Positions 12,890 through 64,000 of a stretch of DNA of 64,000 bases are shown here, one piece after another. This stretch comes from Thelephora terrestris (taxonomy: Eukaryota > Basidiomycota > Agaricomycetes > Thelephorales > Thelephoraceae): the NCBI GenBank assembly GCA_015956445.1, contig WIUZ02000013.1:434001-498000 (forward strand). The letters run 5' to 3'. Each line of letters begins with the position of its first letter. Positions within the stretch are counted from its first letter, which is position 1. The notes beneath the pieces are model-generated. The model searched no databases, had not been told where the DNA came from, and saw only the letters and a list, made by a program, of their open reading frames with translations. Position numbers and translations under genes: made by a program.

Positions 12890-15821
12890 TGTCAGGGCCA
12901 CTCTTCGCCCTTCAGGTACCAGTGCTGTTGGTGAGTCGCAACTCCAACCAACAAGAAACAATGGGGCAAAGGGGGAACGACTTCCCTATATCCACCCAGA
13001 GTCTACGTGGTCCAAAACGCGATGGACGAGCGTTCTCCGGTAGGTTGTCCGAATTCACAGCAGGAGTGCCGAGCCTCTATCAGATCAATCCCTATCGTCT
13101 TCTGAGGGCAGAGATAAGAGCCCGAGGATGGCGCCTCAAACTGATGACTTGATTCAAAGAGCAGTGCAGAACTCGATGTCGCGTCCGAGCTCGCTTCAAA
13201 CACCGATTAAGGATCAAGACTGAGTGAGAGAGGAGAGCGAACGGTTCAAGGAGTTACTCGATAAGCTCTTCAGTGGCCTACAGCAAATACACCGATGCTG
13301 CAAGGAGAAGAGGACTTCCCGAGATATCAAAGATGGGGAGTCCTCAGCTACTCTACTGGTACCTATATAGGAGAGTGGCCGGGACATAGATAACCCTATC
13401 TAATAATAACTCGGAGCAAAGAAGGGCCGAGAGTAAGCACGAACAATAAGCGGCCCGGAGTATAGAATTGAAATGATAAGGGAATGACTAACGGGTCAGG
13501 GTTCGTGAGAGAATAAGAAAGGGGTCATGACGTCGTGTGGGAAAGGAATGACAAAGGATAATATCACATGCAAGGACGAACCAATGAGAGGACGATGCGT
13601 CAGCTCGTCCGATCGGGACAACAAAAGACCGAGTGGGGCGTGAATGTCGAAGGTGAATGTATGAAGAGTCTGGACCGGTGAAACGATGGACCGAGCCAAT
13701 GGCGAATAGGGCGCGAGCGCTGTCGATGGTCGAATAAAGCGTAATGCGAACCGGCCATTGGATCCATCAAACTCCCTTCTTTCCAAATCAACAATCCCAC
13801 CAACCAAATACTCATCCACTATGCCCATGATCTCCGATCGTGTCTTCCGGGCTGAGAACAGCACCGCTACCATCGAGTCTGCGGATCCTCGATCTGTGCA
13901 GAACAAGGGTTACTTCCTTCCGAACGCCAACGTGGCGTACCCTAGTTATCGCGAGGTGCGACGTCACGTGTCGCCGTTTGCTGGCAACAACTGACATCGC
14001 ATTGTAGATCTTCGCGGTTGCTGACAAGGTGGATGCTCGACAACTGGAGGCAACGATCGCCAGGCCTCCCCACTATTTGACCATGGATGACGAGTTGTGG
14101 TATCACAACTTGATTGACCACAAGTTACAGGAGTCTATGCGCGGGGTCACGTTTGACACCGAGTTGCGTATGCCATGGGAGACTCCGGTGGCGTCATCGT
14201 TGTGGGGTCTTCTGAAGATGGGAATCTACGACCTGGGAAACGGCGAAGGAAGGTGGCCAGGGGCGACTCGTTCGCAACACTATACCGCGGCCGTTGGTCA
14301 CCGCCTTTGGTTCCTTTTGAGGACAGAACAGAAAGCGGTGAGTCGGTCTGTGCATCCCGCTTGTGGGATAACACTGACAGGCTTGTAGAATGAGCGGCTG
14401 AAGCGTGAAGTGAAGGAAGCGAAGGATGATGCCCGTAGGATGTATTCGGAAGCGTTGGACACGAAGAAGACGCTGCTCCTGATGAACGATACGCTCCGCG
14501 TCACGTTTGAGAGCGAGATGCTAGCGATGCGCGAAGAACACAACCGGTTGGTCGAGTCCTTGAAGGAACGGGATGACACCATCCAGCGAGACCTGATCGA
14601 GGTCGACCGACGGCTCAACCGTCATAGAAGGGTTCTGAATGAGCTCGACACCAAGGTTGGTGCGACTTCTCCTGGTCTTTGTCCAAGAGAGCTCATGCCA
14701 CTCCTAGGTCGATACGTTGGACGACGCTTTGCCATTGTTGGGCGCTCGGGTCGAATCGATGAGCGAGCGGTTGTGTCACTGCCGCACTCGTTCGGTAGCT
14801 GCGGTTCGCGACGAGTCCGAGGACGAGTCGATACCGGATCGGATGGCTTCTCCCATAGGTGGGATGTCGGTTGACATATTTGACTTGTCTATTGACACCC
14901 TTTTTAGCTTCCGATGGGTCGTACCGCACACCTGCGCACACCGATGGTGGGGAGGAGGTTGTCCGCGAGACGTCCGAGGAGACGGCCGTGAATCCGGTTA
15001 GCAGTTCTCCCGAGTTGGAGTACGCGGGGGAGAACGAGGTGGCCGTTCCGATTCCGCCTCCTTCGATCTCGCCGGTGCGTGGTCAACGTTCTATCCGTGC
15101 TCGTCGTTGGGTTCCTTATCGTGGGGCACTTCGTCCAGCGCACCGTATGCGTCCCAGTAATCCCAATGTCGTCCGCCAGGGTGGAGACATCGAATCCACC
15201 GTCCTATTCCGATGCAACGATGCTACAGTGTCGCGTGGATCGCGGCGAGCTGATTCCGGTGGAGTCCGTCGACGTGAACGGCTTAACCGACCTTACACTC
15301 TTGTCGGTCCAGCGTGCAGCGGAGGCCGTTCACCTGGTGGCTCAACTGACCGAGAGAGTGGAGGGTTGGTCAGTCCAGAGGACTCTGGATCAGACTACGG
15401 TCGATTCAGCGAGGAACCGCCTTCGCGCCGAGGTTCAGTTGGCCGTCGCTCATCGTCTGGAGGAAGCTCGGGTCGTCGAGATGGTCGACGAGGAAGTCGA
15501 CGAGAATGCCTCGGAGGGGACGGAGGAGGAGGTTGCCAGTGCTGAGGAGTACTGGCAAACTAGGTCTTGACGACTAGGGTTTGTACGCCTTAGTCCTCGT
15601 CCATAGAGTCCGGGCGGATTCAACTCCGTCGGTTTGGTAGTCTTGTGTCTTTGCTGCGCGTCGCGTGTAATATCATCAGTGTCCTTGTCTGTGTTCCTTG
15701 ATGACGTGTGAGTCGTGATAAGGGAAATGATAAGATAGGAACGGGGTATAGGTAAGGAAAGTGGGCGAAAGTTGGGTGTAAAAAATGGTTTGAAAAGGAA
15801 ATAAAATTCAGCACGCTGACA
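12890..15821 (+). mobile_element. LTR-B copy 1: 2.93-kb solo long terminal repeat carrying a gene
   Basis: The unit begins TGTCAGGGCCACTC and ends GCACGCTGACA. It is flanked on both sides by TATTG (12885-12889 and 15822-15826). TG..CA ends, a 5-bp inverted repeat (TGTCA/TGACA) and a 5-bp duplication are the marks of retroviral-type integrase insertion, so I read it as a solo LTR. The same start, TGTCAGGGCCACTCT, recurs at 62025. No internal retrotransposon domain is present. A TATA-like CTATATAGG lies near 13364 inside the unit, ahead of the gene. Alternative: a non-autonomous element of another class with similar ends. Confidence 0.8.
13821..15570 (+). CDS. LTR-B encoded coiled-coil protein of unknown function (493 aa)
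   Basis: There are six exons: 13821-13955, 14008-14337, 14389-14655, 14708-14858, 14908-15074 and 15139-15570. Every intron is GT..AG and all phases join, giving 493 aa without a stop. No known domain is recognised. Exon 3 (residues about 156-244) is strongly charged and helix-forming, with heptad-like Leu/Glu/Arg content, so a coiled coil is likely. Residues about 295-350 are acidic and disordered. The C-terminus is Glu/Val-rich. The gene lies wholly inside the TG..CA unit 12890-15821, so it moves with the element. The N-terminus shows a weak resemblance in pattern to the LTR-A plus-strand protein at 49481 (a Y..PAN.A motif at the first intron). Function unknown. Confidence 0.7.
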
Positions 15822-18051: not shown

Positions 18052-18145
18052 TGTCAGGGTTGTAGGCCTGCTTACTGTTTATGGGGCGCTAGAGGATTAG
18101 CAGAGGGGTGCGGGGTGTCGGGTCGAGTTTTGAAGGGGGTTCCGG

Positions 18146-21239: not shown

Positions 21240-21339
21240 TTAGAAACCGATCGCTTTGTATGAAGGCACAAGGATCTCTTCCTTTGTCAAGGTTCCACTG
21301 GCACGGAATTGGTTGTCTATATCTTCGACGAACATACTG

Positions 21340-22648
21340 CAGTAGTCCTTATTGAAATTTTAAAAATCTCGTGGTCCTTGCCCGCGGTTTTGACTTTTTT
21401 TGTCCAGGCCCAATTCTGAAACTGTAGGGGAGGATCCTACTTACTTTTACTCGGCCGGGTTGTTTCAGCACTGGCCCAGTGAGGCCAGGTCCGGTCAATA
21501 TGACCCTCGGCTATTTGCACCGGCCCCAGGATTGATCTGGGGGTGACAGACGTGGGAATTCGCTTCCAGCTGGTTCCTCCCCGGCGCTTCGTCCCATCAA
21601 TATCCTTCGGTAGGACGATCGGCCGTGGGAACCAGCCATCACGCATCCCCTGGTTCCTCCCCGGCGCTTCGTCCCATCAATATCCTTCGGTAGGACGATC
21701 GGCCGTGGGAACCAGCCATCACGCGTCCCCTGGTTCCTTCCGGCGCTTCGTCCCATCAATATCCTTCGGTAGGACGATCGGCCGTGGGAACCAGCCATCA
21801 CGGGCCTCTCCTGGTTCCTCCCGGCGCTTCCTCCAGTAAATACCGCCCTCCTGGGCACCCGGTTGCCGGGTACTGGGTTGCAGGCTTACATAGTTATTTG
21901 TAGTGGTATTTGTACATAATAATTCAATTTATTTCACCACTTCTCTCGCTTGCGCCGCCCCAGAAAAAAATCAAAAAAAATCTCGAAAAAATTGCTGATA
22001 GGTACTTCACATATTCGCCAGCTCATCCCGCTTAAAACCACTGTATTTTACGTAGAATTGAGCCCAGAAATCGTGTTTTAAATTCCTCCCGGGTTGATTG
22101 CAGGTGATCGGAATCTGCCGAGCTGAAGGGGGAAAGAAAAAGTGCGGCAGTGCACCTGGTATTCCCTTTTTTTATACAAAATTTGTACCAGTAGGTAGCC
22201 AATGTATACTGCTCAAATTTCCGTCGCGTCCGAAGCACTAAATTGGTGTTTTCACGCAGTGGCAGCACTGCCATTCCGTGCCGGCTCACTTGCGCGGGTT
22301 CCGGCGCCTAAAATCGCCCTCAACATAAAAAAACATATCGGCTACGCCGGATTTTCTGCTTTCTGACTTAGATATCCCCTTATTCCCTTGTATTTACTGT
22401 ATTTAGCAATGGGTAACATACATCCACACAATAAAAGCAGGTTTCTCGCCTCTGCCAGCCTGCCTCTTGTTCTCGCTGCCAGCGACACTTTCCTTTTTGG
22501 GACACTTTCCTTTTTGGGAACTCAAACAAAAAAGTTGCTAAGTCCACGTCGCATCAGCGAAAACACAAGAAACATTCCATTGCAATCAAAATACGTTGTA
22601 GCTAGAGATAACGCAAGAGGTAGCTACGTAAAAAAACCCGAAATTCAA
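21340..22648 (+). repeat. KDZ left terminal inverted repeat (1309 bp)
   Basis: It is the reverse complement of 31140-32448. The inner border is at ...CGAAATTCAA. It contains an 80-bp tandem array at 21571-21835 and the stop codon and presumably the 3' UTR of the minus-strand partner gene. Confidence 0.95.
21571..21835. repeat. 80-bp tandem repeat inside the KDZ inverted repeat, 3.3 copies
   Basis: Units start with TGGTTCCTCCCCGGCGCTTC at 21571, 21651, 21731 and 21812 (the last partial). Each holds TCGGTAGGACGATCGGCCG. Copies differ by a few bases (atccc/gtccc/ggcctctcc at the unit ends). Subterminal repeated motifs of this type are common transposase binding sites, which is an inference here. 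The mirror array is at 31953-32217. Confidence 0.9.
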
Positions 22649-30400: not shown

Positions 30401-31143
30401 CCCGTTACCGTGATGCCCGCACTGCCCTCCTCCGCCTCGACCCCGAAGGGAAGTTCTCTCCATGGAAGAATGACCTCAAGGACTTATGCCGGGAAGACAT
30501 CAGGGGACCCTCGCGCGAGACTACAGACACGTCAGAATCACGGCGGGAGCTTTCGTGGATCTGGCACACCGGATCGCTACAACCTGACACCGGGATCAAT
30601 GACCCTCAGTTGCAAGGTGTTATGCGTGTCGAATGGTGCAAGGCGGTTGCTCGTGCTGAACGGTTCCAGGAGGAGGTAGAGCTACTGGTTGAGGAAATGC
30701 GACGGACCCTTTGCTTCTTTGATTGGAATGCAGGGAACTGGGAGAAGCTCGGGGAGGCTCGTGTCGGTGAGCCCACCATTGATGAAGAGATCACTGTTGG
30801 CATGAGAGCATACGCTGCACGCCAGGCCGCGCTCTATCGGAAACTTGTTCACGTCTTCATTGCAGACTGGTACGAATGTTTGGAGCTCAAATCACTCGGG
30901 TCCCACTGGCTTGCAAAATACCCTCGCCCCGAAGCAGCCCGAAATCGAAGGCGCCGGCTCAAATCCAACGTCAAAATGTACCACTCTTCTGTATTTCCTT
31001 CCTCCGCTGGGACAGAAGACATTCCGGAGACTGAAGACGCCCTCACCGACGACCCTCCCTCTGATAGCGACCCGGACCCAGTGGATTTTGAGGATGACGT
31101 GGATGTTGCTTTGGACGATCTGGACGCCCCCCTTTGGACTTGA
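27458..31143 (+). CDS. KDZ transposase with CxC2-like cysteine cluster (1069 aa)
   Basis: Exons are 27458-27700, 27748-27957, 28008-28376, 28427-28608, 28681-28846, 28900-29048, 29096-29502, 29557-29733, 29783-29915 and 29970-31143. All are GT..AG with matching phases, 1069 aa. Near residues 110-145 lies the cysteine cluster C..C....YRCKDC....TCKEC...H..HPLH seen with KDZ transposases. Next come KWTGSFFEP, VQLGH, FCHC and ARWFPATVFRPSTSF. The catalytic RNase H fold shows FLGIDGCFKTKLK (first D), GVVAVSCRHSF, VVTYDIACQWG (second D), VPKFHLIGHG and HGEGVETIW (E). The C-terminal third is basic and helical, then acidic, ending on a stop inside the inverted repeat. It would cut and join the element ends. 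ATG 27458 was preferred over upstream frame extension. It looks active. Confidence 0.93.
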
Positions 31144-32448
31144 ATTTCGGGTTTTTTTACGTAGCTACCTCTTGCGTTATCTCTAGCTACAACGTATTTT
31201 GATTGCAATGGAATGTTTCTTGTGTTTTCGCTGATGCGACGTGGACTTAGCAACTTTTTTGTTTGAGTTCCCAAAAAGGAAAGTGTCCCAAAAAGGAAAG
31301 TGTCGCTGGCAGCGAGAACAAGAGGCAGGCTGGCAGAGGCGAGAAACCTGCTTTTATTGTGTGGATGTATGTTACCCATTGCTAAATACAGTAAATACAA
31401 GGGAATAAGGGGATATCTAAGTCAGAAAGCAGAAAATCCGGCGTAGCCGATATGTTTTTTTATGTTGAGGGCGATTTTAGGCGCCGGAACCCGCGCAAGT
31501 GAGCCGGCACGGAATGGCAGTGCTGCCACTGCGTGAAAACACCAATTTAGTGCTTCGGACGCGACGGAAATTTGAGCAGTATACATTGGCTACCTACTGG
31601 TACAAATTTTGTATAAAAAAAGGGAATACCAGGTGCACTGCCGCACTTTTTCTTTCCCCCTTCAGCTCGGCAGATTCCGATCACCTGCAATCAACCCGGG
31701 AGGAATTTAAAACACGATTTCTGGGCTCAATTCTACGTAAAATACAGTGGTTTTAAGCGGGATGAGCTGGCGAATATGTGAAGTACCTATCAGCAATTTT
31801 TTCGAGATTTTTTTTGATTTTTTTCTGGGGCGGCGCAAGCGAGAGAAGTGGTGAAATAAATTGAATTATTATGTACAAATACCACTACAAATAACTATGT
31901 AAGCCTGCAACCCAGTACCCGGCAACCGGGTGCCCAGGAGGGCGGTATTTACTGGAGGAAGCGCCGGGAGGAACCAGGAGAGGCCCGTGATGGCTGGTTC
32001 CCACGGCCGATCGTCCTACCGAAGGATATTGATGGGACGAAGCGCCGGAAGGAACCAGGGGACGCGTGATGGCTGGTTCCCACGGCCGATCGTCCTACCG
32101 AAGGATATTGATGGGACGAAGCGCCGGGGAGGAACCAGGGGATGCGTGATGGCTGGTTCCCACGGCCGATCGTCCTACCGAAGGATATTGATGGGACGAA
32201 GCGCCGGGGAGGAACCAGCTGGAAGCGAATTCCCACGTCTGTCACCCCCAGATCAATCCTGGGGCCGGTGCAAATAGCCGAGGGTCATATTGACCGGACC
32301 TGGCCTCACTGGGCCAGTGCTGAAACAACCCGGCCGAGTAAAAGTAAGTAGGATCCTCCCCTACAGTTTCAGAATTGGGCCTGGACAAAAAAAGTCAAAA
32401 CCGCGGGCAAGGACCACGAGATTTTTAAAATTTCAATAAGGACTACTG
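31140..32448 (-). repeat. KDZ right terminal inverted repeat (1309 bp)
   Basis: It is the reverse complement of 21340-22648. The stop codon of the transposase (31141-31143) is made by its innermost bases (TTGAATTTCGG). It carries the mirror of the 80-bp tandem array at 31953-32217. Confidence 0.95.
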
Positions 32449-32796
32449 CATACTGTCAGGCGTGTTTTCCTCGAGGAGGAAGGGGTACTGGAAGAATTCG
32501 TGGTCTACCCACACCGCTTCCCAGGTGCTAAAACGATGCTTTTTGACTGCCTGGCGGATCCTTTCCCGGGCATCCTCAGTGTCGCGGAGATATTCAAGTA
32601 GGAGGGGCAGGGTTTTGAGGTGGGTGTCGGGAGAGAGGATGATCCAAACGCAGTTTCCTCCGACGAAACTGAAGTCCATTTGAAGACGGGGGAAGAGGAG
32701 GGAGTGGTGTTGAGGTGTTGGTTTGACTGACTGGGGGTAAGCGCGGAGTAGGAGTCGTAGATACCGAAACGGATAGGAGACCACACCTTTGAACAA

Positions 32797-33142: not shown

Positions 33143-36100
33143 TTAGGGAGAGGACGATTCTGAGTCGTTTCCTGACTGAGAATCTTGCGTACCTTCGTCT
33201 GATTGTTCCTGAGAGATCTCGTGTTCAACTTCGTTATCAGTGCCAACTAGTGTGGCCCAATGGTCTAGATCCTGTCTTTTAACGTAAGGGATTAGCCTAT
33301 AGGCGGCCACATGCTCCGTTAGCTCACTGCTATCCATTTCTTCCAGGACATATGATCCTCCTTGAGTCCTTCTGATGACACGATAAGGGCCCATGTATCT
33401 ATCTGCAGTCTTCCTTTCGATAGACACACTGTTCTCAATCCGGTTGTTTCGTACTAAGACTAAGTCACCTGACTGATAAGCTCCTATTTTGAGTCGTCTA
33501 GCAAACTTCTTTTCGTAGGCTTGCTTGGATCTGAACCTTGATTTCTGGAGAATTTTCTTTGCTTTGGCTATGTCTTCTGGAAGCCTAAGGAGTTGACGTG
33601 CCCTAGTTTGCACTAGTTCGTCTCTGGTCATGCCTGGTCTGAAGTCGTTAACTAAAAATGTTGCATCAGCGAGATCTCCTGGCAGCAAGGGATGTACACC
33701 GTGTAGGAGGTAATAAGGGCTGTATCCTGTGGATTTGCGTACTGTGATCCTGTCAGCGTAATTAGCAGCTGAAACATACAGAGGCCATTTGGACAAGTCT
33801 CCTTTGCACAACTTTACTAAGGCTTCTCGGATGTTGTAGTGTCCACGTTCGACTGGTCCATTGGCTTGAGAATTGTAGGGAGAGATCTTGATGTGACATA
33901 TTCCATATTTGGTCAGTAGCTCAGAGAATTCCTTTCCAAAAGAAGGTCCGTTATCTGTGACCACTTCCTGGACTATCCCATAACGTAGGATGATCTTCTT
34001 AAGGAAAAACCTAGCCATGACTTTGGCTTTGTCTCTTGCTATTGCTTTGCATTCCGTTACACCAGACAGGTCATCTCTACAATTAATCAACCAACGCTTG
34101 CCTCTGGCTAAGGGCATGCTCATTACATCCACGTATACCTTACTGAACAGACTTGGCGGGTGGGAAATTGTGACAGGAATATGCATCTTCTTGGTACTTC
34201 TGAGTTGACAAGTATGACAGCTCTGTACGTGTTCCTTGATCTGGTTCCTCATTCCTGGCCAAAAGTACCGGAGGGTTAGAAGTTGTTCTACGGCCCAAAC
34301 TCCATGGTGACCTATGTTCTCATGGGCTTCCCATAGTATTTCCTTTCTTCGTTCTTTAGGGAAAATCACGACTTGGGAAGGATAGCCTAAACGTTTCTTG
34401 TACATATGAGCTTCCTTCATATAGAATGGTTTGGCTTTGTTTAGGAAAGCCTTCCTGTGCTTGGCAAACCGGAATTCTGGTACTTTCTTGGTAATCAGGA
34501 ACCGTAGGATGGCAACGAGGTCATCATCAGAATATTGATGGCCTGATGCTACTGCGTAAGAGGCTTTAACGCTGTCATCCAAAAAGGTGGCATCTTCCAA
34601 ATGGGGGTAAGCAAGGGGTTCAGGGTCTGACTGAACTGGGGAGGTGATGACTGGTACAGGAGGGGAGGGCTCATCATGAACCTGAACAGCTAGAGCAATG
34701 TTATCTATCCATTCCTCTGGGTCAGATTCCTGGGATAGATCTTCTTCATCACTAGCTTGTCTTCTTCTTGATAGAGCATCAGGGGCCTTGTGCTTATGCG
34801 CAGGGGTGTGAACTAACTTGAAAGTGAACTGTAGGATTGCTTTTACCCACCGATTCATAGGGGCTCCTGGAATCGTATCTGGGTTCTTCAACATTCCTCC
34901 TATGCTTGAGGCATCCACTTCAACAATGAGGTTCTTTACACCGTATAGGTAGGCTCTGAACTTGTGTAAGGCTCGATACAAACCGTAGAGTTCCAGCTTA
35001 GATTGTCCGTAGCGTTCACTATACCCACTGAAGGGGATGGATCCATATCTCGCTGGAGTACGGCGGCCTTCTTCATCTTCTTGGGACAAAACCATGCCTA
35101 TACCATGCACACTTGTGTCTACAGAGAAATAGACTGGCCTGTCACTAGTGTAATCTATTGACCGTAGTGCTGGTGCACTTGATACTAGCTTCTTGAGCTT
35201 CTCAAAGGTTTCTTGGCGCTCTGGGCTCCAACAGTATTCTACGTCTTTTCTGGTTAGATCAACCAAAGGTTTAGCCAATAGGCTGAAACCTTCAATCCAA
35301 ATCCGGACTGTTCCACATAAGCCTAAGAATCCTCTGAGCTCTTTGAGGTTACGAGGTACTGGCCAATTTTCAACCTTCTGAGCACGACAATCTACTGGCT
35401 CTCTTCCTTTAGCACTGCACTTATGACCTACTATTTCTACTTCTGCACGGCAGAGCTGCATCTTCTTGGCCGATATTGTACCACCTGCTTCTCCGATTCT
35501 ATGAAGAATTCTATGAACGTCGCTGATATGCTCCCATATGTATCTTCTGATACCTGGGTTCTCTTTGAGGGTTTCCTCCTTGCCATCCGGTCCAAGGTAC
35601 TTTGAAGCTGGTCCCTTGATTGGTATGTCGTCTATAAAGACTCCTGCAACGTCTGGGACTTCATCATGGAGGATGAACATCATAGTATCCTGGAATTCTG
35701 CTGGGGCATTAACGTATCCCATTGGCAGTGACGTAAGTCGGAAAACTCCTATAGGGGTCTGGAAGGCAGTAAGATCTCTACTATGGACATCTAGGACTCT
35801 GGCATGGAAGCCCCAGTACATATCCAATACAGTATAAACACTACGTCCAGCATATGCTTCAACAAATTCTTCAATGATGGGAGGAACAGCTGAGTCCCTG
35901 ATTGTTACACTATTAAGACGTCTAAGGTCATGGACTAACCTTAAACCACCGTCCTTCTTAAGAACATAGAACCATCTGGATCTATAAGCTGTTTGGGCTC
36001 TCTCGTAGACTCCAGCCTTGATCTTTTCCTTAAGGAGACGTAGAACTTCATCCTTGTGACTTAGACCTAAGGGTATGTTCTTCTCAGTCCATGGTTCGTG

Positions 36101-46827: not shown

Positions 46828-46829
46828 GT

Positions 46830-48195: not shown

Positions 48196-48749
48196 CCGGG
48201 CGTAGAGGTGAGAGGAGGAGGGATATCAAGCGAGAGTGGTGACTCTGATTGATAAGGATGGACGGGTGAGTTATAATCCTGGCAGAACTGGTTCAATTGC
48301 TGAACGAACGGTTCGAAGTCTTGACCGCTGAGCTGTTCGAAGTGAACGAGATACTCTATAATCGAATAAGGTAGTTCAGTAGGGATGTCCCACCAAAGGA
48401 CGATGAGAGCGGGACAATGGGTGTGAACGTTGGTGGTTAAGTGGACTTTGGGAGATGGGAAGTAAAAGGCGGGGCTGACACAGAAGTAGACGGTTGCTAG
48501 AACACTCTCAGTGAGGTCTGAGTTCCAAAGGAACTGATGGTCTGCGCCTAGAAGAAAAGGGGGAGTAGTGACTCCGGCGTCGAGAGCGGCGAAAGGTCGG
48601 TAGTAGGGAAAATGGGTGAGTAAACCGGCGGTTCGGTTTACCTGAAGGCTTCTGATGAGTTTATACTCCCAGATAGACCTTCTAGCGTCAGGGACAACTG
48701 GTCGCTGGGTTGGACTGGTGGAGGGAAAAGGGTTAGGGGTGCTGAACAT

Positions 48750-49480
48750 ACACTGGCAGGAGGATTCCTGCTAGAATGAATCAGAAAGAGTAGAGCGTGA
48801 AGAGAATTCCTCAGCTTACTTGTTTATTCGAGTTGAGGGTAGAGAAGTACAGAAGAGATTGAGAATGGGGAAAAGGAAGGAGCGAACGCTCTCCTTTATA
48901 TACCCAATCCTCTACAGGAGTCATTATTCTACAACGAGTCAAACAAGAGTCAACATGGTCTGTGCGTAGTTTAGGGCAGGGTAGATGAGTCAGAATAAGG
49001 GGAACTTAGGACGATAGATAATAATTACTCATACGGGAACAATAGGGGCACGAGTCGATGGAAGCATTCAGGGACTTCTCGTGTTCGATGGGGATTTCTC
49101 TGGATCAATGGTAGCAATAGAAGCGTGGTGGGGATTTCCTGTGATCGATGGGGATTTCTCTCGTTTCATGGTGGTAATAGAAGACTGATGGGGATTTCTC
49201 ATGATCGGTAGGGATTTCTCATGATCGGTAGGGATTTCTCATGATCGGTAGGGATTTCTCATGATCGGTGGGAATTTCTCGGTTTTGATGGAATCGCGAT
49301 TGGGGCTGAGGGTTCGTTTATCCTAATTGAGATTTTAATGGATAATGGGTTATTGTTTTCCCTTCTCGGTTCCCTTTTGAGTCAGGGTGTATTTAAGTCA
49401 GGGGAGATTATTGGTCGCTCTCCTCATCGTCTCTTTTCCACTCCCACCAAGCACCAGTACCACCCTCTTCCTCTACTACT
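48750..49480. promoter_or_regulatory. LTR-A bidirectional promoter region
   Basis: It lies between the divergent starts at 48749 (minus) and 49481 (plus). On minus a TATA box GGGTATATAAAGG sits at about 48895-48907, roughly 150 bp before the ATG. On plus a weaker TATTTAAG lies near 49391. The middle has GGGATTTCTC-containing repeats. The same order is kept in the inverted copy at 59006-59661. Confidence 0.6.
49199..49280. repeat. 20-bp minisatellite in the LTR-A promoter, 4 copies
   Basis: The unit ATGATCGGTAGGGATTTCTC is repeated from 49201 to 49280, with the last copy altered to GTGGGAATTTCTC. Looser copies of the GGGATTTCTC core lie upstream (49080-49200). Copy 2 (59223-59350, inverted) has different spacing and number, so the array varies between copies. 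Confidence 0.9.
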
Positions 49481-50384
49481 ATGTCTGCCTTCGTTGCCAA
49501 CAACATCGTCCTCAACGCCGCCGCCACCCCCTTCACTCCGTCTTTTGAGACGGACGCTCCCTACGACGTGGAGCAACACTTATATGACTCCCCTGCCAAC
49601 ATCGCCCACGACAACCAGGTTGCCGTCGATTTCCTCACCGCCCATAATGCTCCCGCCGAGTTCTGGGAACAAGCCGGGTATGAAGATCCTAGACTTCCCA
49701 TGCCTCAGATGCAGGCCCAACACCCTGCAGCCTCTCGCTTATTGGACATCATGGAACAGGATAGGGAGGATAGGATTGCGAAGTTGGAGAAGCGTGTGGA
49801 TCTCATGTATGTCATTATGAACAGTTTGAACGAGGACTTTTCTCACTTCGCTTTGGAACATTGGGGACCTTTCCAGGCATCTCTCTTCCGATATTTCGGA
49901 CACCCATGTCGCGGAGCTTATTGCACCGACCCCCCTTGCAAGTCCCCAGTCGTCCCTTCGCCACCGCCAGGATCAGGGCGTTCCTCTCCCTCCATCCCCT
50001 CCCTGGAGTCCTGCCCCAGTTCGCCAGATGGTGGAGAGGTCCCAGAAGAAGAAGACCCGCAGGAGTCCGATGACTCGTTCTGGACAACGTTGTCGTCCCT
50101 CCGACAAGTCACGTCAGGTGAGGATGAAGTTGAAGGTGGAAGTGGCGGGTCTCCAAGACCGCTATGGGTTCGCCTTAGTGAGCACAGCCTTGTCGGACGT
50201 GAAGCGGGAGATGTATGATAGCTTGTCGCATGATGTGTTGGGGTGTAGGGAGTGTTGGCAGGATCCGGTGACGCGACAGTGGTCTTACTGTCCTGAGAGT
50301 GTTTATAACCCTCACCACTTTGCTCATCGTTGCCCTCTCCCTCAGGAATGTTCGTGTGACATCGACCCGTTTGTCCTTGTCTGA
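49481..50384 (+). CDS. LTR-A plus-strand protein of unknown function, Cys/His-rich C-terminus
   Basis: Two frames are conserved with copy 2. Frame 1 from ATG 49481 gives 245 aa. A second frame (50028-50384) ends in a Cys/His-rich block. A simple model with one 79-bp intron (49949-50027, weak GTCGTC donor) joins exons 49481-49948 and 50028-50384 into 274 aa. The matching exon sizes (468 and 357) recur in copy 2. Residues about 75-120 are helical and charged (MEQDREDRIAKLEKRVDLMY). The C-terminus reads GCRECWQDP, then YCPESVYNPHHFAHRCPL, then CSCDIDPF, which looks like a zinc-binding fold. No known family is recognised. The splice or frameshift choice is not settled. Confidence 0.6.
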
Positions 50385-50681
50385 CTTTGTAGTTCTTTTT
50401 AATCACTCTTGTACTACTATTACTGCGAATAAGACCAATGTCTTGAATTACTTGTGAGATCCTGGCTACTATGTCACGCGTTCGTGACAGGTTTGTCCTG
50501 ATAATCCCTAGCCATTATCATGGATTTGCTTCTTGGAACAGAAGATAAGATCATTCAGATAAATAAAGAAGGATCTGTCAGACCTTTCTATTGTCCCATC
50601 TTCAATCTTCTTGGTAATCACTATTAGCACCTAGAGTGTACTTCCCCAATTATATGCCCACTATCTTTTCAGTGTTTATTC

Positions 50682-51023: not shown

Positions 51024-51694
51024 TTGGTACATGCCACCAAATCCCTGAGACATGGTCTAATCATGTTGGGACCTCATTGCTATGCTCTCAGATTCCAAGA
51101 TTTCGTTCTCCAAGCTCCCCACTACTTCTCCAGATCTCATCATACTCACACCTGCTTTTCTCTCGCCTCGCTCACCCGCACCACCACATACGGGGAACCA
51201 ATACTTCATTTCAGACCTCACCAAGCAACACATCTTCACCCACGCTACATGCCACCAACAAAAAACTGTTGCCAGTGCATTTTGGGTTTCCACCAAAACA
51301 GTAAAACAAGTCGTTGAGAATGTCCGCAATCATGGTATGGTATCTCGCCAGCTGTTGACGGTAGGCTGGCAAAGAGAGCTATCGTGGGATGACATTACTG
51401 TATTACATCTATTGTACTCAATCTCTCGTGGCTGACAGTGTCGTAGTATCTTATTGTGCTCATCAAGCACATGCCAGACATGCACCTCAGTGAACTTCGA
51501 CATATGCTTGAGGTGATGCGTGGTGTGTCGGTTCACAAGTCTACTGTTTGCCAGTGTAGTGCCTCCAGTTCTGGGGATGTGGGATTCTGATGTTTGCTGT
51601 CCTCAGTCCTCATTCCTCCTCTTCGCTTTTCCTCTCCTTTGTAACCTTTGCAACCTCCTTTGCAACCTTCAGAACCTCCTCCTCTTCGGAACTT

Positions 51695-51880
51695 CTTCCT
51701 CTTCGCTGGAGCTTCCTCTTCGCTGGAGCTTCCTCTTCGCTGGAGCTTCCTCTTCGCTGGAGCTTCCTCTTCGCTGGAGCTTCCTCTTCGCTGGAGCTTC
51801 CTCTTCGCTGGAGCTTCCTCTTCGCTGGAGCTTCCTCTTCGCTGGAGCTTCCTCTTCGCTGGAGCTTCCTCTTCGCTGAA
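51695..51880. repeat. 17-bp minisatellite, 10 copies plus one variant
   Basis: The unit CTTCCTCTTCGCTGGAG repeats without change from 51695 to 51864, then a variant ends CTGAA. Its length is not a multiple of three, so the open frames over it are artefacts of composition. Confidence 0.95.
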
Positions 51881-52040
51881 CTTCCTCTCCTTCGCCGGAG
51901 CTTCCTCTCCTTCGCCGGAGCTTCCTCTCCTTCGCCGGAGCTTCCTCTCCTTCGCCGGAGCTTCCTCTCCTTCGCCGGAGCTTCCTCTCCTTCGCCGGAG
52001 CTTCCTCTCCTTCGCCGGAGCTTCCTCTCCTTCGCCGGAG
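51881..52040. repeat. 20-bp minisatellite, 8 perfect copies
   Basis: The unit CTTCCTCTCCTTCGCCGGAG is repeated exactly eight times, directly abutting the 17-bp array, from which it differs by a 3-bp insertion and one substitution. A partial ninth copy follows. Confidence 0.95.
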
Positions 52041-53646
52041 CTTCCTCTCCTTCGCAATCTCCTCTTCTTCGCGATCTCCTCTTTGCCGGAGCTTCCTCTT
52101 CTCCAGAAGACTTTCCCCTTTGCTTAGTTCCCCCTTTATGATGACTTTCCCCTTTCATGACGACTTTCCCCTTTTTTCCTCTTCCCCTATGACTTCGCCA
52201 TTGCATCATAGGTCCCTATTTTGCAGTTTCCCTCCTTTCTTCTCTGGATCCTTCTCAGAGCAGACCTTAGTATATATCCTGTACTAGCTACTCTGGAGAT
52301 CATTGCGCTCCATCCTATTGAAGTCCAGTCAGCCATGTTCCCCTCCTCCTAGTCTGAAGCTTTGCTCTAGTCCCCTCGTCGTCCCCAGTGTCTTCTTGCT
52401 TTCCTCAGTGTCTTCCCCTCGTGTTCTCCGCTTCCCTCGTCGAATCTCCCCTTCAGAACTCTGGGAACTCTGGGAACTCTTTCGGAACTCTTGTGATCTC
52501 TCTGTTCTTCTTGCTTTGTCTCTAGCTCTCTTCTGGTCTCTCCACCTTTGCGCTTTCTTCACAACTGTTCCCCAGTTGCCACTTGGAGTTCCTTGACACT
52601 GTACAACCTAGGACCCTCCTTTACAGGAACTCTCTGGGCCTTGATCCTCTGCCTTCACGGAGGTCACCAAGAAGAACCCCTGTTCACCGGTCATTGCATC
52701 GTGTGGGATATTCACTGAAGAAGGCTTCAATCTCTGCTCTGGAACAGAATGAAGATATACGCTGCAAGTACCTTCTCACAGTCGGTCTACAGTTCTCTGT
52801 GGAACAATTGGTCTTTGTGGACAAGTCCACCTGTAACCGAATCACCACCCGACAACAATGTGCATGGGCACCAATTGGTAACCGTGTGAAGAGACACGAC
52901 TACTTTGTTCGTGGAAAATGGTAGGTTTGCTCACATACAAACTCAATGTCTCACTCATTTGTTTTGTTTTAAGTTACTCTATACTGCCGGCAATGTCACT
53001 CGATGGGATTTTGCATCTTGCAATCCAAGACCAGCCCTACACTGCCATTCAATTCAATAGCTTCATCGACATGCTCCTTGATGGCATGAATCCATTTCCG
53101 CAGCCGAACTCGGTGATCGTGATGGATAACGCATCCATCCACAAGTCAGTAGAACTTCAGGAAATGGTTGAAGCACAGTTTGTTTAGCTATCTCTAACAA
53201 TTGTACACATGGCTGATAGTTGAACAGCGGAATGTGACTCTTCTATCTCTCACCTTACTCACCAGACTTCAACCCCATCGAAGAAGCATTTTCTTGCATC
53301 AAGGCATGGATTTGTTCGCACCAGGATGGAGTACTAGTTGAATTGGATGGAGATGATGCATCATGGCCCTATGAGATCCTTTGGGAGGCAGTATTTACCT
53401 CGGTCACTGTAGATAAAGTTCAATGCTGGTATCGTGACTGTGGGTATCTTTAGGACATGTATGAGCGCCGAGAATGTTCGTAATTCATGATTGCATAACA
53501 AACCATGTGCCTAAACACACCCAAACCACCCGTGCTCAGGCTGCCCGTGTCCGTTATCTCACAGCTTGTAACAATTATAGAATGAACAGAGTTTGTATTT
53601 CAAGGCCATGAGATACAAGCTTTTGGTAAATACGTGATACAAGTGC

Positions 53647-55060: not shown

Positions 55061-55408
55061 GTTGTTGAAATCAGTGGATGCGGCGAGCGACGACAATTGC
55101 CAGCAAACAGCCAACCCTACTGCTTGGCCTATGTGTTCATACATGCTTGATGAGAGCAACGCCGCACCACACTGATGTGTTGTGCAACAAGATATGAGGG
55201 CAGTGAGCAAACAAAGTTGGTGAGTGAGACGGCGGGAGGCAATGCGGAAGGCAATGTGGGAGGCAACAGAAGAGGTGGCGGAAGGCGGCTATCGAAGATT
55301 CTGATCTAAGTCCCATGAAAAACCTTTGTTTATATGTCACGGTACAAACAAAAAAAAAATCCCACCTCTACTTTTTCGAAAAAGGGTTTATCGATCTGCA
55401 ACCCACTG
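55061..55408 (-). repeat. Right inverted repeat of the Tc1-like element
   Basis: Inverted match of 50682-51023; see that entry. The element ends at 55408 (CCCACTG). Confidence 0.85.
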
Positions 55409-57867: not shown

Positions 57868-58101
57868 GCCTCACCAAACGGAAGCATGCTAGGGATTCTT
57901 CCTCTGAAGAGGAAGATAATGACAATGTTTCGGGTGAACGCCCAACCGATGGTAAGAGGCAAGTCAAGTTGATACGAGAAAACACTACTCACATATTGTC
58001 ACGAACGCGTGACATAGTAGCCAAAATCGCACAAGTAATTCAAGACATTGGTCTTATTCGCAGTAATAATAGTACAAAGGTGGCTAGCAAAAACTACAAA
58101 C

Positions 58102-59005
58102 TCAGACAAGAACAAACAGGTCTACGTCGCACGAACAGTCCTGAGCAAACGGACAACGGTGAGCGAAATGGTGAGGGTTATGGACACTCTCAGGGCAATA
58201 CGAATACGCTCGCGTCACCGGATCCTGCCAACACTCCCTACACCCCAACACATCATGATATAGACTATCATGCATCTCCCGCTTCACGTCCGACAAGGCT
58301 GCGCTCACTAAGGCGAACCCATAGCGGTCTTGGAGACCCGCCACTTCTACCTTCAACTTCATCCGAACCTGACGTGACTTGTCGGAGGGACGACAACGTT
58401 GACCAGAACGAGTCATCGGACTCTTGCGGTTCTTCTTCTTCTGGGACCTCTCCACCATCTGGCGAACTGGGGCAGGACTCCAGGGAGGGGATGGAGGGAG
58501 AGGAACGCCCTGATCCTGGCGGTGGCGAAGGGACGACTGGGGACTTGCAAGGGGGGTCGGTGCAATAAGCCCCATGGCACTGGTGTCCGAAATATCGGAA
58601 GAGAGATGCCTGGAAAGGTCCCCAATGTTCCAAAGCAAAGTGAGAGAAGTCATCATTCAAACTGTTCATGATGACGTACATAAGGTCCACGCGTTTCTCC
58701 AGCTTCGCAATCCTATTCTCCCGCTCCCTCTCCATGGCGTCCAACAAAAGGACGGCTCCAGGGTGACCAGGCTGAACCTGAGGCCTAGAAAGTCTGGGAT
58801 CTTCATACCCAGCCTGTTCCCAGAACTCAGCGGGGGCATTGTGGGCGGTGAGGAAGTTGATGGCGACTTGGTTGTCGTGGGCAATGTTGGCGGGGGAATC
58901 ATATAAGTGTTGCTCCACGTCGTAAGGAGCATCCGTCTCGAAGGACAAAGTAAAAGGGGTGGCGGCAGCGTTGAGCACGGCGTTGTTGGCGGTGAAAGCA
59001 GACAT
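58102..59005 (-). CDS. LTR-A Cys/His-rich protein, copy 2
   Basis: It starts MSAFTANNAVLNAAATPF at 59005. Modelled exons 59005-58538 and 58458-58102 have the same sizes (468 and 357 nt) as in copy 1, for 274 aa. The frame extends upstream without a stop, but the conserved Met matches copy 1. It differs from copy 1 by scattered replacements and keeps CRECWQDPVTR, YCPESVHNPHHFAHRC and CSCDVDLF. No nonsense codons are seen, in contrast to its neighbour on plus. The choice between splicing and a frameshift is open, since both overlapping frames are conserved. Confidence 0.55.
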
Positions 59006-59661
59006 GATAGTAACGGATGTTTGGAGAGGATGGTGGTACTGGTGGTTGTAGGAGGGGAAAAGAGACGATGAGAGGAAAAGACCAATAATCCCCTGGATTA
59101 TATCTGATTGACTCAATAGGATGCCGAAAAGGGAAGACAATGAACCATTATCCATGCACATCCCAAATAGAATAAACGAACCCTGAACCCCAATCACGAT
59201 CCCATCAAACCCGGAGAAATCCCCCTCGATCATGAGAAATCCCACCTATCTTCTATTGCTACCTTGAAACAGGGGAAATCCCCATCGATCATGGGAAATC
59301 CCCACCCGTCTTCTATTATTATCATAAAACGAGAGAAATCCCCATTGCACGCCTAATGACTCATTCGCTATTATTCCTCTAATCTATATTTGTCATTCGT
59401 CGTTCTAAGTCCCACTTCTCTGACTCACCTACCCTACCCTAAACTACGCACAGACCATATTGACCCCTGTTTGGTTCGTTGTAGAATAATGACTCCTGTA
59501 GAGGATTGGGTATATAAGGAAGAGCGTTCGCTCCTTTCTTTTCCCCATTCTCAATCTCTTCTGTACTCCTCTACCCACAACCTGAATAAAAGTAAGCTGA
59601 GGAATTCTCCTCACGTCTTACCTCTTCTGACTCATTTCAGCAGGAATCCTCCTGCCAGTGT

Positions 59662-60285
59662 ATGTTCAGCGCCCCCAATCCTTTCCCTTCATCAAGTCCA
59701 GTCCAACGACCAGTCGTTCCTGACGCTAGGAGATCTATCTGGGAGTATAAACTCATCAGAAGTCTTCAAGTAAACTGAACCACCGGCTTACTCACCCACT
59801 TCCCTTACTACAGACCCTTTGCAGCTCTCGACGCCGGAGTCACTACCCCTCCTTTTTTCCTAGGGGCAGATCATCAATTCCTTTGGAATTCAGATCTTAC
59901 TGAGAGCGTCCTCGCGACTGTCTACTTCAGTATCAGTCCAGCCTTCTACTTCCCCTCCCCGCGTATTCATCTCACCACTAACATCCATACCCATTCCCCT
60001 GCTATTATTGTTCTTTGGTGGGAGATCCCAACTGAATTACCTTACTCGGTTATAGAATATCTCGTCAATTTCGAACACCTCAGCGATCAAGACTTCGAAC
60101 CCTTTGTGCAGTAACTCAATCGGTTCTGCCAGGACTACCACTCACCCGTTCACCCTTATCAAACAGAGTCACCCCTCTCCCTTGATATTCCTCCTCCCCT
60201 TATTTCCACGCCCGGAACCCCCTTCAAAACTAGACCCAACACCCCTCACCCTTCCGCTAATCCTCTAGCGCCCCACAAACAGTAA
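59662..60285 (+). pseudogene. LTR-A 207-aa family gene, copy 2, with two nonsense codons
   Basis: The frame starts MFSAPNPFPSSSPVQRP at 59662 and would end at 60283-60285. It has TGA at 59776-59778, where the intact copy has CGA (Arg), and TAA at 60112-60114, where it has CAA (Gln). Both are C-to-T changes on the coding strand. Otherwise the protein sequence stays close to the copy at 63279-63902. Confidence 0.85.
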
Positions 60286-60355
60286 GCAGGCCCACAACCC
60301 TGACACATATTACCAGGTATTGATATTATCTTTGACTATCCTGCGAAAGGTGGTC

Positions 60356-61057
60356 ACTGGGGGCAGACCCCTACTTACCCAGCAGGAAAATTGAGAGTTT
60401 TTTGAGAGTTTTTAAACAATTTACTCAGATTTTACCCAGTGGGTTAATTGTGAACAAATTCAAAACTTACCCACCACTTTGCCCACACTTTGATCACTGG
60501 GTAAGTTTTGAAATTGTTCTCAACAAACTCATCAGTTTGCCCATGAGGTACTTCTTTGACAAAACTCCAGGGGTTCTTTCACAAATTGCACAAAATGTGC
60601 CCACCACATGTTCTGAGCCACTCATCAAGAGTTCTTTCAAAACTTGCTCACAATACACTCAGTAACATACCCACCAGGTTCTCTTTGATGTAATCACAAC
60701 AAACTCTTGATTTGCTCAGTTTTATGACAAACTCTCAACAAACCCACTGTGTACATGCTTGAACATGTTGTGGGCAAATCACTGGGTAATTTGTGAAAGA
60801 ACTCTGGGCAAGTGGCTCAGGTCATGCAGTGGACACATTTTGTGCAATTTATGAGTGAAAACTTGGGGTTTGTCAAAGAAGTACCTCATGGGCAAGCTGA
60901 TGAGTTTGTTGAGAACAATTTCAAAACTTACCAAGTGATCAAAGTGTGGGCAAAGTGGTGGGTAAGTTTTGAATTTGTTCACAATTAACCCACTGGGTAA
61001 AAACTCTCAAAAAACTCTCAATTTTCCTGCTGGGTAAGTAGGGGTCTGCCCCCAGTG
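60356..61057. mobile_element. CACTA-type fold-back element (non-autonomous), 702 bp
   Basis: The ends are CACTGGGGGCAGACCCC and its inverse. The two arms of about 300 bp are near-perfect inverted copies of each other, with a short centre near 60680. The 3-bp sequence GGT flanks both sides (60352-60354, 61058-61060). CACTG ends and a 3-bp duplication fit the CACTA/EnSpm class. No coding frame is present. It splits the LGYKF-family gene. Confidence 0.85.
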
Positions 61058-62024
61058 GGTATGGTGGATAGCATCACTCTTCCGAGTTCGATTTCTTGGG
61101 TCGGGTTCCAGGAGGAGATGTGCACTGCGATGACTCTTCACATCAAGGATCTGAAGCTTGGCTACAAGTTCTCAACACACCCTCAACGCGAAGTCCCACG
61201 AATCCTCAGTACACCCGCAGCATTTATCAGGATGAAGGATGATGCTGTGACCCAGATTTGTGAACGAGGGAATTCGTTGGGGAAGGGTAAGAAGGGAAAA
61301 TGCAGGGATGTTTTTTGGGTGATACTTGTTGAATCGGGCAGGAAGACTCGTGAGAAGACAGTTTTCACGAAGGGAAAGGTATAGGTGTATATATTCTTTC
61401 TCCTTCACAAACCTGATTTCGTTGATTATCCAAGAAAAATGCTTTAGCAAAGGGACCTCTGGAGGAAGAAGATGAGCCATCCGAAAAGGGTGCTGGGGAA
61501 CACCTGAGTGTTCTCTTATCACGATATACATGCCCCACCCATTCACGCTTATGCTATGCTGTATCCGACACTGATCACAAGGCCCTCTCACACGGTGATC
61601 TGGGCATATAGTCTACAATGATGGTTTGTGTCCCCATTGCTACATTCCACACTATGACTTACTTATCATAGACTGCTGGGCATGCAACACTCGACAACCC
61701 ACCTGGATCCTTACAAATTGAGCAACAACCATCTGTCAGGGCATCAACAAAACAGCCAACTACTGGTTCTGGTCTCACTCCTTCCACATCAACCAGCGAA
61801 CTACTGCTCATGGAATTCATCAAGAATAACTCATCCAGTCGTCTTTACTCTCGCTCCCAATCTCGGTCTCAATCTCAGTCATCCTCTCCTTGAAAACGAC
61901 TCAAGTTATCATCTGTTCCCATCTTTTTCAATGACCCTGCTGTTTACCCAAAACTGGATGCTTGGCTCAAGAGCCTTGATCACAGTCCCCAAAACATCGA
62001 CAACCATAACTTTAGCCAGATCTT

Positions 62025-63258
62025 TGTCAGGGCCACTCTACCCCAACAACTACCAGTGCACTGAGCCGACTCCGCAGAGTACTCACTAGTCCAACTAGCT
62101 TGTGAGAGAACGATCACGTCTCTATTCTTCTGGTAGGTTGTCCGAGGTCACTGCAAGTCAGGTCGAAATCCTAAAGAGAAACCCAACCTAAACCGTACTT
62201 CGTTCGGTTTAACACACAAGGGTTTATCTCTACAACAGGATTGATGACTCCACCAGTTGATCGACTGGACGCTCGAGGTGTTCTAATATGAACGCGGGGG
62301 GGGTTCTATAGTTACGAGGCACAGTTGACGCGCAGAGCGGGAGGGAGAGCAGATGGGGATGTCTTGAATCAAACAAGAAACTCTGACTTGGCCTTAACTG
62401 CAACTGGGCTGAGAAGGGCAGAGGATTTCCTGAGGTAACAAAACTAAGGTACTACGATACAGCCACAGTTGCTACTTATACTAAAGGAGTGGCCATGATG
62501 TCAATACCCTAATATACCCTTATCAAGCCAGAACAAAGGGAAATAAGGAGTGTGAGAACGCTAAGTAAGGGAAGCGAACAACGGTGACGCGTGAGAGAAT
62601 AAAGGACAAAGGGCCTTACTAGCGTGTGAAAGATTGCATAAAAGATAACGAATGTCTGCATGAAACATAGGGGTAAAGATAACACTAGTCCTAAAAGAAA
62701 TAGGGGCATGGGTCATGAAAGTTCGTACCTGGATCTAGACCACACCCAAGGGTCAGGTGAGCACCGTCTCGTGGCTTCTGCGATTGGCCAGAGATAACGA
62801 AGAACTCTACACATCCCTTGTTGTCGGTAGGTGGTATGATACCAATGGACAGGCAGTAACCTGGGAGTTGCAGCCGTAATCACTTGATCAGACCCAGTCT
62901 TGATTAGGCATAGCACCTGGGAATATCGTTCTTCCTAAGTGGCACCAGGGATTATATTCTTCGGCCGCCGTTCTCGGCTCGGGCCTACTCTGCTTCCAAA
63001 GCACAACTAGATCAGATAGGGTTACTATCTGATTAGAAGCACAGTGTCCAAATGTTGATACCCCATGCCCACGTGTGTGTTCCAGGGTCCAGGGTTGATC
63101 ATAATTGTAAAGTCATGAGGGGTCGTAAAAAGGGGTTCGTGATGTCATGAAGGGGTCATCAGGGTCTTGAGACCTATTTTTAGTGCACGCGCGTTCTAGG
63201 CGTTCCGGAACGAAGTTCTTCCAAGGCCGTCCCGCGGGCCGAGGTGTCAGCTTGATGT
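62025..63258 (+). mobile_element. LTR-B copy 2, left part (interrupted and incomplete)
   Basis: It begins TGTCAGGGCCACTCTACCCC, matching the LTR-B start at 12890. It keeps landmarks in the same order (GGTAGGTTGTCCGA near 62134 versus 13041, TATA-like region, GGGGTCATCAGGG near 63143). ATCTT precedes it (62020-62024). LTR-A copy 3 enters at 63259, so the rest lies beyond the window or is lost. No gene remains visible here. Confidence 0.65.
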
Positions 63259-64000
63259 TGTCAGGGTTGTAGGCCTGCTTACTGTTTGTGGGGCGCTAGA
63301 GGATTAGCAGCGGGGTGAGGGGTGTCGGGTCTGACTTTGAAGGGAGTTCCGGGTGTAGAGACGAGGGGAGGTGGGATATCAAGAGAGAGAGGTGACTCGG
63401 TTTGATAGGGGTGTACGGGTGAGTGGTAGTCTTGGCAGAACTGGCTGAGTTGCTGCACAAAGGGTTCAAAGTCTTGGTCGCTAAGGCGTTCGAAATTGAC
63501 GAGATATTCTATAACCGAATAAGGTAATTCAGTAGGGACTTCCCACCAAAGAATGATGATAGCAGGAGAATGGGTATGGATGTTAGTGGTGAGGTGAACA
63601 CGTGGGGAGGGGAAGTAGAAGGCTGGGCTGATACTGAAGTAGACGGTCGCGAGGACACTCTCAGTAAGATCTGAATTCCAAAGGAATTGGTGATCTGCCC
63701 CTAGGAGAAAGGGAGGAGTGGTGACTCCGGCGTCGAGTGCTGCAAAGGGTCGGTAGTAAGGGAAATGGGTGAGTAAACCGGCGGTTCGGTTTACTTGAAG
63801 ACTTCTGATGAGTTTATACTCCCAGATAGATCTCCTAGCGTCAGGAATAACCGGGCGCTGAACTGGACTTGTAGAGGGGAAGGGATTTGGAGCACTGAAC
63901 ATACACTAGCAGGAGGATTCCTGCTGAAATGAGTTTAGAAGGGGGTAAGACGTGAGAAGAATTCCTCAGCTTACTTTTATTCAGGTTGTGGTTAGAGGAG
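63259..64000 (+). mobile_element. LTR-A copy 3, truncated by the window end
   Basis: It starts TGTCAGGGTTGTAGGCC, identical in form to copy 1 at 18052, preceded by GATGT. It contains an intact minus-strand 207-aa gene and the start of the promoter region. Whether it is solo or part of a full element cannot be seen. Confidence 0.75.
63279..63902 (-). CDS. LTR-A 207-aa family protein, intact copy
   Basis: One frame without intron, ATG at 63900-63902, 207 residues. It begins MFSAPNPFPSTSPVQRPVI and ends PAANPLAPHKQ. The middle has aromatic, hydrophobic segments (HFPYYRPFAALDAG, SPAFYFPSPRVHL, AIIILWWEVPTELPYS) and a helical FERLSDQDFEPFVQQL. The N- and C-tails are Pro/Ser-rich. There is no signal peptide and no recognised domain. 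It is the reference copy showing where the gypsy element entered copy 1. It probably belongs to the retrotransposon's LTR; role unknown. Confidence 0.7.
   Translation of the reverse strand: MFSAPNPFPSTSPVQRPVIPDARRSIWEYKLIRSLQVNRTAGLLTHFPYYRPFAALDAGVTTPPFLLGADHQFLWNSDLTESVLATVYFSISPAFYFPSPRVHLTTNIHTHSPAIIILWWEVPTELPYSVIEYLVNFERLSDQDFEPFVQQLSQFCQDYHSPVHPYQTESPLSLDIPPPLVSTPGTPFKVRPDTPHPAANPLAPHKQ

Follow-up and report, generated by a model that had tools for sequence, protein, structure and literature searches.

Spliced antisense genes within the long terminal repeats of Thelephora terrestris chromoviruses

A 64,000-nucleotide (nt) stretch of the genome of Thelephora terrestris, a soil basidiomycete of the Thelephorales (assembly GCA_015956445.1, contig WIUZ02000013.1, positions 434,001 to 498,000; hereafter the window) raises the question whether the long terminal repeats (LTRs) of fungal retrotransposons can carry protein-coding genes of their own. 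The original prediction, made from the sequence alone, described one family of units with TGTCA...TGACA ends and 5-bp duplications that behave like solo LTRs and hold spliced genes. Three families, here called A, B and C, were found among these units instead of one; the genes of A and C are homologous, and B has no detectable relation to them. As protein-coding LTRs the units are borne out for A and C, for which LTR pairs, primer-binding sites (PBS) and a pol with chromodomain were found, and less fully for B, for which no complete element was found.

Families A and C as chromoviruses

Family A is represented in the window by a single LTR at 12890-15821, which is flanked by the target-site duplication (TSD) TATTG. 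Family B is represented by unit 2, whose left piece (18052-18145, plus strand) and right piece (48196-50489, plus strand) lie on either side of a nested element and are flanked by GGTTT, and by unit 3 (57997-60305, minus strand), flanked by CATAT. For these three complete units the TGTCA...TGACA ends and the perfect 5-bp duplications were confirmed. The two further unit starts are real as well. The one at 62025 belongs to the different LTR family C: 62025-63258 (plus strand) is the first 1.2 kb of a 3.3-kb LTR, has no gene within the window and is interrupted by a B-type unit, the start of which occupies 63259-64000 (plus strand) and the gene of which lies beyond the window. Solo-LTR-like behaviour held up genome-wide: a perfect 5-bp duplication without an internal region was found in 19 of the 22 A copies examined that form no part of the two complete elements described below (18 of 21 loci and the window copy) and in seven of nine single B copies (five of seven loci, unit 2 and the copy at C17:197989), the chance expectation being 1 in 1024 per copy.

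Searching the genome with the family A unit yielded 49 matches, 35 of which spanned the full query (40 of 296 candidates scored). Two elements were recovered in which same-strand copies of the 2.9-kb LTR, about 95% identical to the window unit, lie approximately 8.8 kb apart with gag and pol open reading frames (ORFs) between them. These elements measure 11,731 and 11,697 bp and carry the TSDs AACTG and GTTTT. Because their LTR pairs are near-identical (identity 1.000 and 0.999), the insertions are recent. The gag product carries a zinc knuckle and pol has the order protease, reverse transcriptase (RT), RNase H, integrase and chromodomain; in profile comparison the integrase core scored under its cut-off and H2C2 over it, and an SH3_Tf2-1 domain was found. 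With the A RT as query, three A-type loci at 100% and eight others at 65-66% identity were obtained, and C-type LTRs were read or placed beside the latter eight. Gag, integrase, chromodomain and SH3_Tf2-1 profiles were matched by the C elements, and the C RT was assigned through its 65% identity to that of A. Paired LTRs of C were deduced from placement, one LTR being read between two element pieces, and whole-element TSDs were read for A only. The proposed search for unit pairs flanking gag and pol thus gave the order LTR-gag-pol-LTR for both A and C, matching TSDs being read for the two A elements; most copies are single, yet paired elements exist. Families A and C are LTR retrotransposons of the chromovirus type. 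Two tandem C-type elements with a common middle LTR were also noted at C23:1029464-1051373.

Immediately internal to the 5' LTR lies the primer site, in which 11 nt (A) or 12 nt (C) from the LTR strand opposite the transcript recur, the match lying at LTR position 435 in A and at about 410 in C. A match of 11 nt was reached by 4 and 5 of 500 shuffles in the control. In the window, the self-primer, an 11-nt stretch of LTR sense strand with complementarity to the PBS, occupies 13324-13334 (minus strand), and a TATA-like box at 13362-13371 (minus strand), approximately 28 nt upstream of it, is a putative part of the element promoter. The pattern of the PBS-LTR junction occurs at 11 genome sites, corresponding to the three A and eight C pol loci, and at none in the backwards control; a third complete A element is indicated. 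Both families appear to be self-primed, with a layout as in Tf1.

LTR termini, counted with at most two mismatches, numbered 172 for A, 411 for C and 317 for B, approximately 900 in all, each backwards control giving 0. Since only three A and eight C primer-site junctions were found, the great majority of the A and C termini represent single or truncated LTRs.

The LTR gene, selection and the last intron

In both A and C, a gene lies wholly inside the LTR on the strand opposite gag-pol. The A gene of the window (13821-15570) is composed of six exons on the plus strand, at 13821-13955, 14008-14337, 14389-14655, 14708-14858, 14908-15074 and 15139-15570, supported by the gene model and conserved copies; exon 3 would encode a coiled coil, judging from the structure model of its C homologue, and exon 6 contains two overlapping frames. 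The six-exon structure that had been proposed was upheld by database protein P0001 from T. terrestris (493 aa, in a 51-member cluster), which has the same length as our model and matches it end to end at 97% identity. The C gene model comprises five exons and approximately 480 aa, and 211 database models in 37 clusters were taken as full-length C proteins. If the element transcript is taken to start at the self-primer, the A gene lies in U3 and runs away from the element promoter.

At the DNA level the A and C LTRs share four short matching stretches only, whereas protein identity is 34% and the genes agree in the positions of their first three introns. Despite barely alignable LTR DNA the two genes are thus homologous, as judged from the sequences. 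The searches with the A and with the A and C proteins scored 7998 and 8000 candidates, so that distant relatives may be missed, and matches were found in T. terrestris only, save for the fragment P0005 from JGI.

The intact 1482-nt coding sequence (CDS) with five GT-AG introns was present in all 26 A LTR sequences (25 fetched and the window copy), and C copies were intact over exons 1-4 in 9 of 9. Not one of the 30 gap columns of the A alignment fell in the CDS, and none of the 113 gap columns of C in exons 1-4. As in the antisense additional ORFs termed aORF-3R, the antisense gene is conserved in most copies. For the variant counts, 24 of the 26 A sequences were used, the second LTR of each complete element (L010, L012) being excluded; the C alignment was made without L059, and unit 2 (W2) entered the B alignment as its right piece only. 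In A exons 1-5, variants shared by at least two copies were 126 synonymous to 13 non-synonymous and private variants 82:41, and in the other reading frames of these exons the ratio was reversed. The corresponding values were 81:12 and 90:36 for C exons 1-4, and 52:15 and 32:34 for the N-terminal part of the B gene in nine copies. The contrast between shared and private variants was significant in each family (A, P = 2e-6; C, P = 0.008; B, P = 0.0006). Over the whole A CDS, 6.4 private stops are expected at noncoding rates; no copy has a stop in the full CDS, including the carrier of one singleton that was classed as a stop against the majority codon. In the nine B copies, frame 1 is stopped in one and frame 2 in one. 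A ratio of non-synonymous to synonymous substitution near 1, which had been named as a refuting sign, was accordingly not seen in A exons 1-5, C exons 1-4 or the B N-terminal part, all of which are under purifying selection; on the A and C genes, it is strong in the exons checked. We read this as selection while the elements multiply, followed by a relaxation that would set in after insertion. Selection on single LTRs after insertion is not claimed, because the private variants are relaxed.

The last introns measure 64 nt in A (15075-15138, plus strand, in the window copy), 94 nt in C and 70 nt in B, all leaving a remainder of one when divided by three. Removal or retention of this intron would therefore change the frame of the tail, and the last intron of each of the three families looks optional and frame-shifting. 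When intron 5 of A is retained, 21 of 24 copies have an exon 5 frame that runs without a stop as far as codon 211, numbered from exon 5. In C, reading through from exon 4 gives an open frame of 248 codons in 9 of 9 copies, and the shared variants inside the 94-nt intron are seven synonymous to one non-synonymous in the alternative frame. Intron retention in A and C is suggested by these open frames. In B, the 70-nt intron (GTACGT...TTTCCAG) connects both frames, its GT being present in eight of nine copies, and some database models of B (P0037-P0039, by reading) are spliced at this intron.

Shared variants in A exon 6 amount to 3.7 per 100 nt, compared with 13.2 per 100 nt in exons 1-5 (P = 6e-9), and the 393-nt overlap of the B frames has 18, compared with 67 in 345 nt (P = 2e-10), approximately a 4-fold reduction in both cases. 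Beyond the stop of frame 1, frame 2 of B shows 17 synonymous shared variants and one non-synonymous. Both frames thus bear signs of selection in A, B and C, least clearly in C. An arginine-rich stretch is encoded in the C intron, and a counterpart was recognized by eye in the alternative frame of A.

Family B and neighbouring sequences

The B gene of unit 2 occupies 49481-50212 (plus strand, frame 1), its second frame extending to about 50384. Between 48750 and 50384 a gene had been proposed; a conserved B-type gene of approximately 245 aa is indeed present there, with one seemingly optional intron and not the many exons envisaged. In unit 3, frame 1 (245 aa) lies at 58268-59005, the seemingly optional 70-nt intron at 58610-58679 and the C-terminal part of the second frame, to which the 17:1 count above applies, at 58102-58368, all on the minus strand. 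A TATA-like box at 59506-59517 (plus strand), in a conserved block, faces away from the gene and may serve as the promoter. The B gene is also found elsewhere: among 40 matches to its protein, 19 came from T. terrestris, 18 from JGI (47-95% identity), two from ENA and one from another source.

How B is to be classified was weighed between two explanations. The units might not be chromovirus LTRs at all, and might instead form an independent mobile gene unit using integrase supplied in trans, or be the LTRs of some other element. This would account for the 317 B termini found with no complete B element, a search that covered the best 150 B genes, 82 gypsy RT loci and 86 of 99 copia RT places. 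Of the 82 gypsy RT loci, none was located between the members of a same-strand B pair (27 pairs), and the PBS pattern of A and C gave no B junction, although a different PBS or copies outside the list would escape this comparison. The 9.6-kb gap between a B pair on C60, the one gap read, was rejected as an internal region as it held only B- and C-type LTR pieces. The pair C12:3266329/3270249 was likewise rejected as a B element, its outer flanks acttg and gacgg not matching. A copia RT does lie inside two B pairs, C17:199287/212740 and C13:650338/655758. The first unit of the C17 pair is single, however, because it has its own duplication, GGCTC, and this pair was rejected as a B element. Against a separate origin stand the TG..CA ends with TGTCAGGG common to A, B and C, the 5-bp duplications and the TATA-like box pointing away from the gene; it is simpler to assume that a complete element is extinct or was not sampled. 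We therefore regard a non-chromovirus nature of B as unlikely, though worth keeping in mind. From its ends, duplications and promoter layout we infer that B is an LTR, and by layout B is most likely an older relative.

Homology of the B protein to that of A was considered and not accepted, the profile comparison giving a probability of 7.7% (E 0.0045), and 0.5% with a smaller alignment.

Other elements were noted near these units. The element nested in B unit 2 (18146-48195) is unusually long (30 kb), with a 4-bp CCGG duplication and LTRs of approximately 1.37 kb that are 99.8% identical. Its minus strand carries an ORF of 2558 aa, weakly matching protease, as well as a gypsy pol ORF at 33143-36688, and a perfect inverted repeat of 1311 nt lies within the element (21338-22648 and 31140-32450). 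An element with inverted ends, CACTGGGGGCAG...CTGCCCCCAGTG, is located at 60355-61057. An A copy on C12 is interrupted by an insert of about 500 bp with ends similar to those of this element, and the same site is the point at which another A copy, on C2, is broken in two. The ORF at 7523-9121 encodes the cytosolic domain of the PHM7/RSN1 transporter family, and at 51646-52105 there are short sequences repeated in tandem, with units of 17 and 20 nt.

Proposed function, competing explanations and known systems

For the window as a whole, the explanation that we favour, with somewhat better than even confidence, is that A and C are chromoviruses with a complete antisense gene in U3, a two-way LTR and a dual-frame regulator, B being an older relative. 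Each LTR would be read in two directions, the element RNA being made in one (TATA, self-primer, R, U5) and the LTR gene, beginning upstream of the element promoter and pointing away from it, in the other. The gene would be expressed in both the spliced and the retained form, as its frames suggest, and its product would begin with a helical part, continue as a long coiled coil and end in a disordered tail. By keeping or removing the last short intron, the tail would be switched between two reading frames. The protein is probably an accessory, element-encoded nuclear regulator acting on LTR transcription or on element RNA. This function is our first choice because of the helical start, coiled coil and changeable tail, the divergent position by the promoter and the arginine-rich stretch. 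By analogy with HBZ, Rev or gene23 of Grande, such a regulator would be needed by the element itself. Because the gene lies within the LTR, a new insertion would carry two copies of it, and a single LTR left by recombination would keep one whole gene.

Structure models fit this picture in part. The C protein was modelled as helices with a long coiled coil at residues 126-243, with a predicted local distance difference test score (pLDDT) of up to 94, and the B protein as a short helical part, including a helix at 85-115, the rest being largely disordered.

Several observations weigh against the favoured explanation. The models are poor outside the coiled coil and their overall confidence is low (48 for C and 54 for B). 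None of the A, B and C proteins matched a Pfam family above the cut-off, coiled-coil-like matches below it being left unused, and no relative of solved structure was found, so that no domain or structure points to function. With regard to the two frames, the alternative A frame is shortened in 3 of 24 copies, the annotated frame of A exon 6 fits weakly (9:7 shared and 18:33 private, synonymous to non-synonymous), and the exon 5 overlap of C has no clear two-frame pattern (35 shared variants, of which 8 are synonymous in the model frame and 15 in the other). The GT donor is missing in one of nine B copies, and the main database models of A and C use the spliced form. With regard to B, profile comparison gave no significant similarity of its protein to those of A and C, and comparison of the best 150 B genes with the gypsy and copia RT places gave no complete element.

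The genes in single LTRs could alternatively serve the fungus, host selection maintaining them copy by copy. This would suit the finding that, leaving aside the two complete elements, all 22 A copies have a CDS free of stops and frameshifts, and that 131 of the best-scoring 150 B genes (392 candidates, the list being selected by score) have no stop. Private variants are far less constrained than shared ones in A (82:41 compared with 126:13), however, as expected from drift after insertion. Among the older A relics, three were covered well enough to be used: two carry stops (two in L026b and one in L027old), and the third, L013b (87%), has none over 1199 nt; relic L026c, with 70 nt covered, was excluded. 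Domestication of this kind is accordingly held to be improbable. We give just as little credence to the LTRs as self-sufficient two-product genes, for which a dual-coding gene would have moved into LTRs and single LTRs would stay active after the loss of the element; the B unit would have outlived or left its gag-pol and would spread or persist through trans-mobilization or a drive-like effect of its two products.

A more selfish version would have the two products act as killer and antidote, the loss of an LTR being punished and single LTRs retained. The wtf genes of fission yeast provide a parallel. Two possible products of one gene through a frame-shifting intron, many intact dispersed copies and very many LTR termini per complete element would all agree with this; no toxin family was recognized in comparison at the Pfam level, and we consider it very unlikely. 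That the LTR ORFs are chance frames without function, as gene finders often call ORFs in repeats and the proteins match no known family, can be set aside almost entirely, being already contradicted by frame-specific purifying selection exon by exon with conserved splice sites, by A-C protein homology across barely alignable LTR DNA, and by the unrelated LTR of the nested element in the same window, which (taken with the 4-bp duplication at its start) has no ATG-started ORF longer than 67 aa.

Returning to the antisense U3 gene of A and C as a regulator of the element, its features can be set beside known systems. To our knowledge, a gene wholly inside an LTR is known mainly from mouse mammary tumour virus (MMTV), the sag gene of which lies inside U3 in sense orientation and encodes a superantigen. 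The T. terrestris gene shares the U3 position with sag and differs in being antisense and spliced. HBZ of human T-cell leukaemia virus type 1 (HTLV-1) is an antisense, spliced regulatory gene with a leucine zipper; it resembles the T. terrestris gene in orientation and splicing and differs in that its coding sequence lies mainly outside the LTR. Tf1 and Tf2 of fission yeast are chromodomain gypsy elements with short LTRs, and Tf1 is self-priming. A and C share with them the chromodomain, SH3_Tf2-1 and the self-priming layout, and differ from them since Tf1 and Tf2 LTRs contain no gene.

Self-priming in general has been described (PMC2864245), and an antisense promoter in the 3' LTR of HTLV is mentioned in PMC7264820. 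According to the same review, antisense extra ORFs without a known function lie between pol and the 3' LTR in plant elements and in the fungal Boty, and Grande possesses an antisense gene with its own promoter and a nuclear product (PMC7264820). The plant antisense ORFs are conserved and are suspected of a nuclear or DNA-binding role (PMC7264820 and PMC11963269, in the portions consulted). Gene23 of the plant Ty3/gypsy element Grande, RIRE2 and TRP28 of Retand thus resemble the T. terrestris gene as conserved antisense accessory genes; in the plant elements there is one such gene per element, located between pol and the 3' LTR and hence absent from a single LTR, whereas the T. terrestris gene is inside the LTR, spliced and has two overlapping frames. 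The antisense brtn gene of Boty in Botrytis cinerea (cited in the available parts of PMC7264820 and PMC8365987) likewise provides a fungal LTR retrotransposon with an antisense extra gene, which PMC7264820 places between pol and the 3' LTR and not in the LTR. The accessible portions of PMC7264820, PMC11963269 and PMC8365987 do not place such a gene inside an LTR. In the open literature, mostly titles and the openings of abstracts with little subscription literature and hence weak evidence, no LTR gene of this kind was found in fungi. What is new here is the placement inside the LTR, antisense accessory genes of LTR retrotransposons being already known.

Two related families, and a third by layout, thus carry a spliced antisense U3 gene that seemingly uses two overlapping frames. 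For annotation, many T. terrestris 'hypothetical proteins' are LTR genes (the 211 C-cluster members and the 51 in the main A cluster). The LTRs may offer natural two-way promoters, as well as overlapping genes whose evolution could be tested on the many copies of a eukaryotic mobile element; they would also provide a handle on the purpose of antisense accessory genes.

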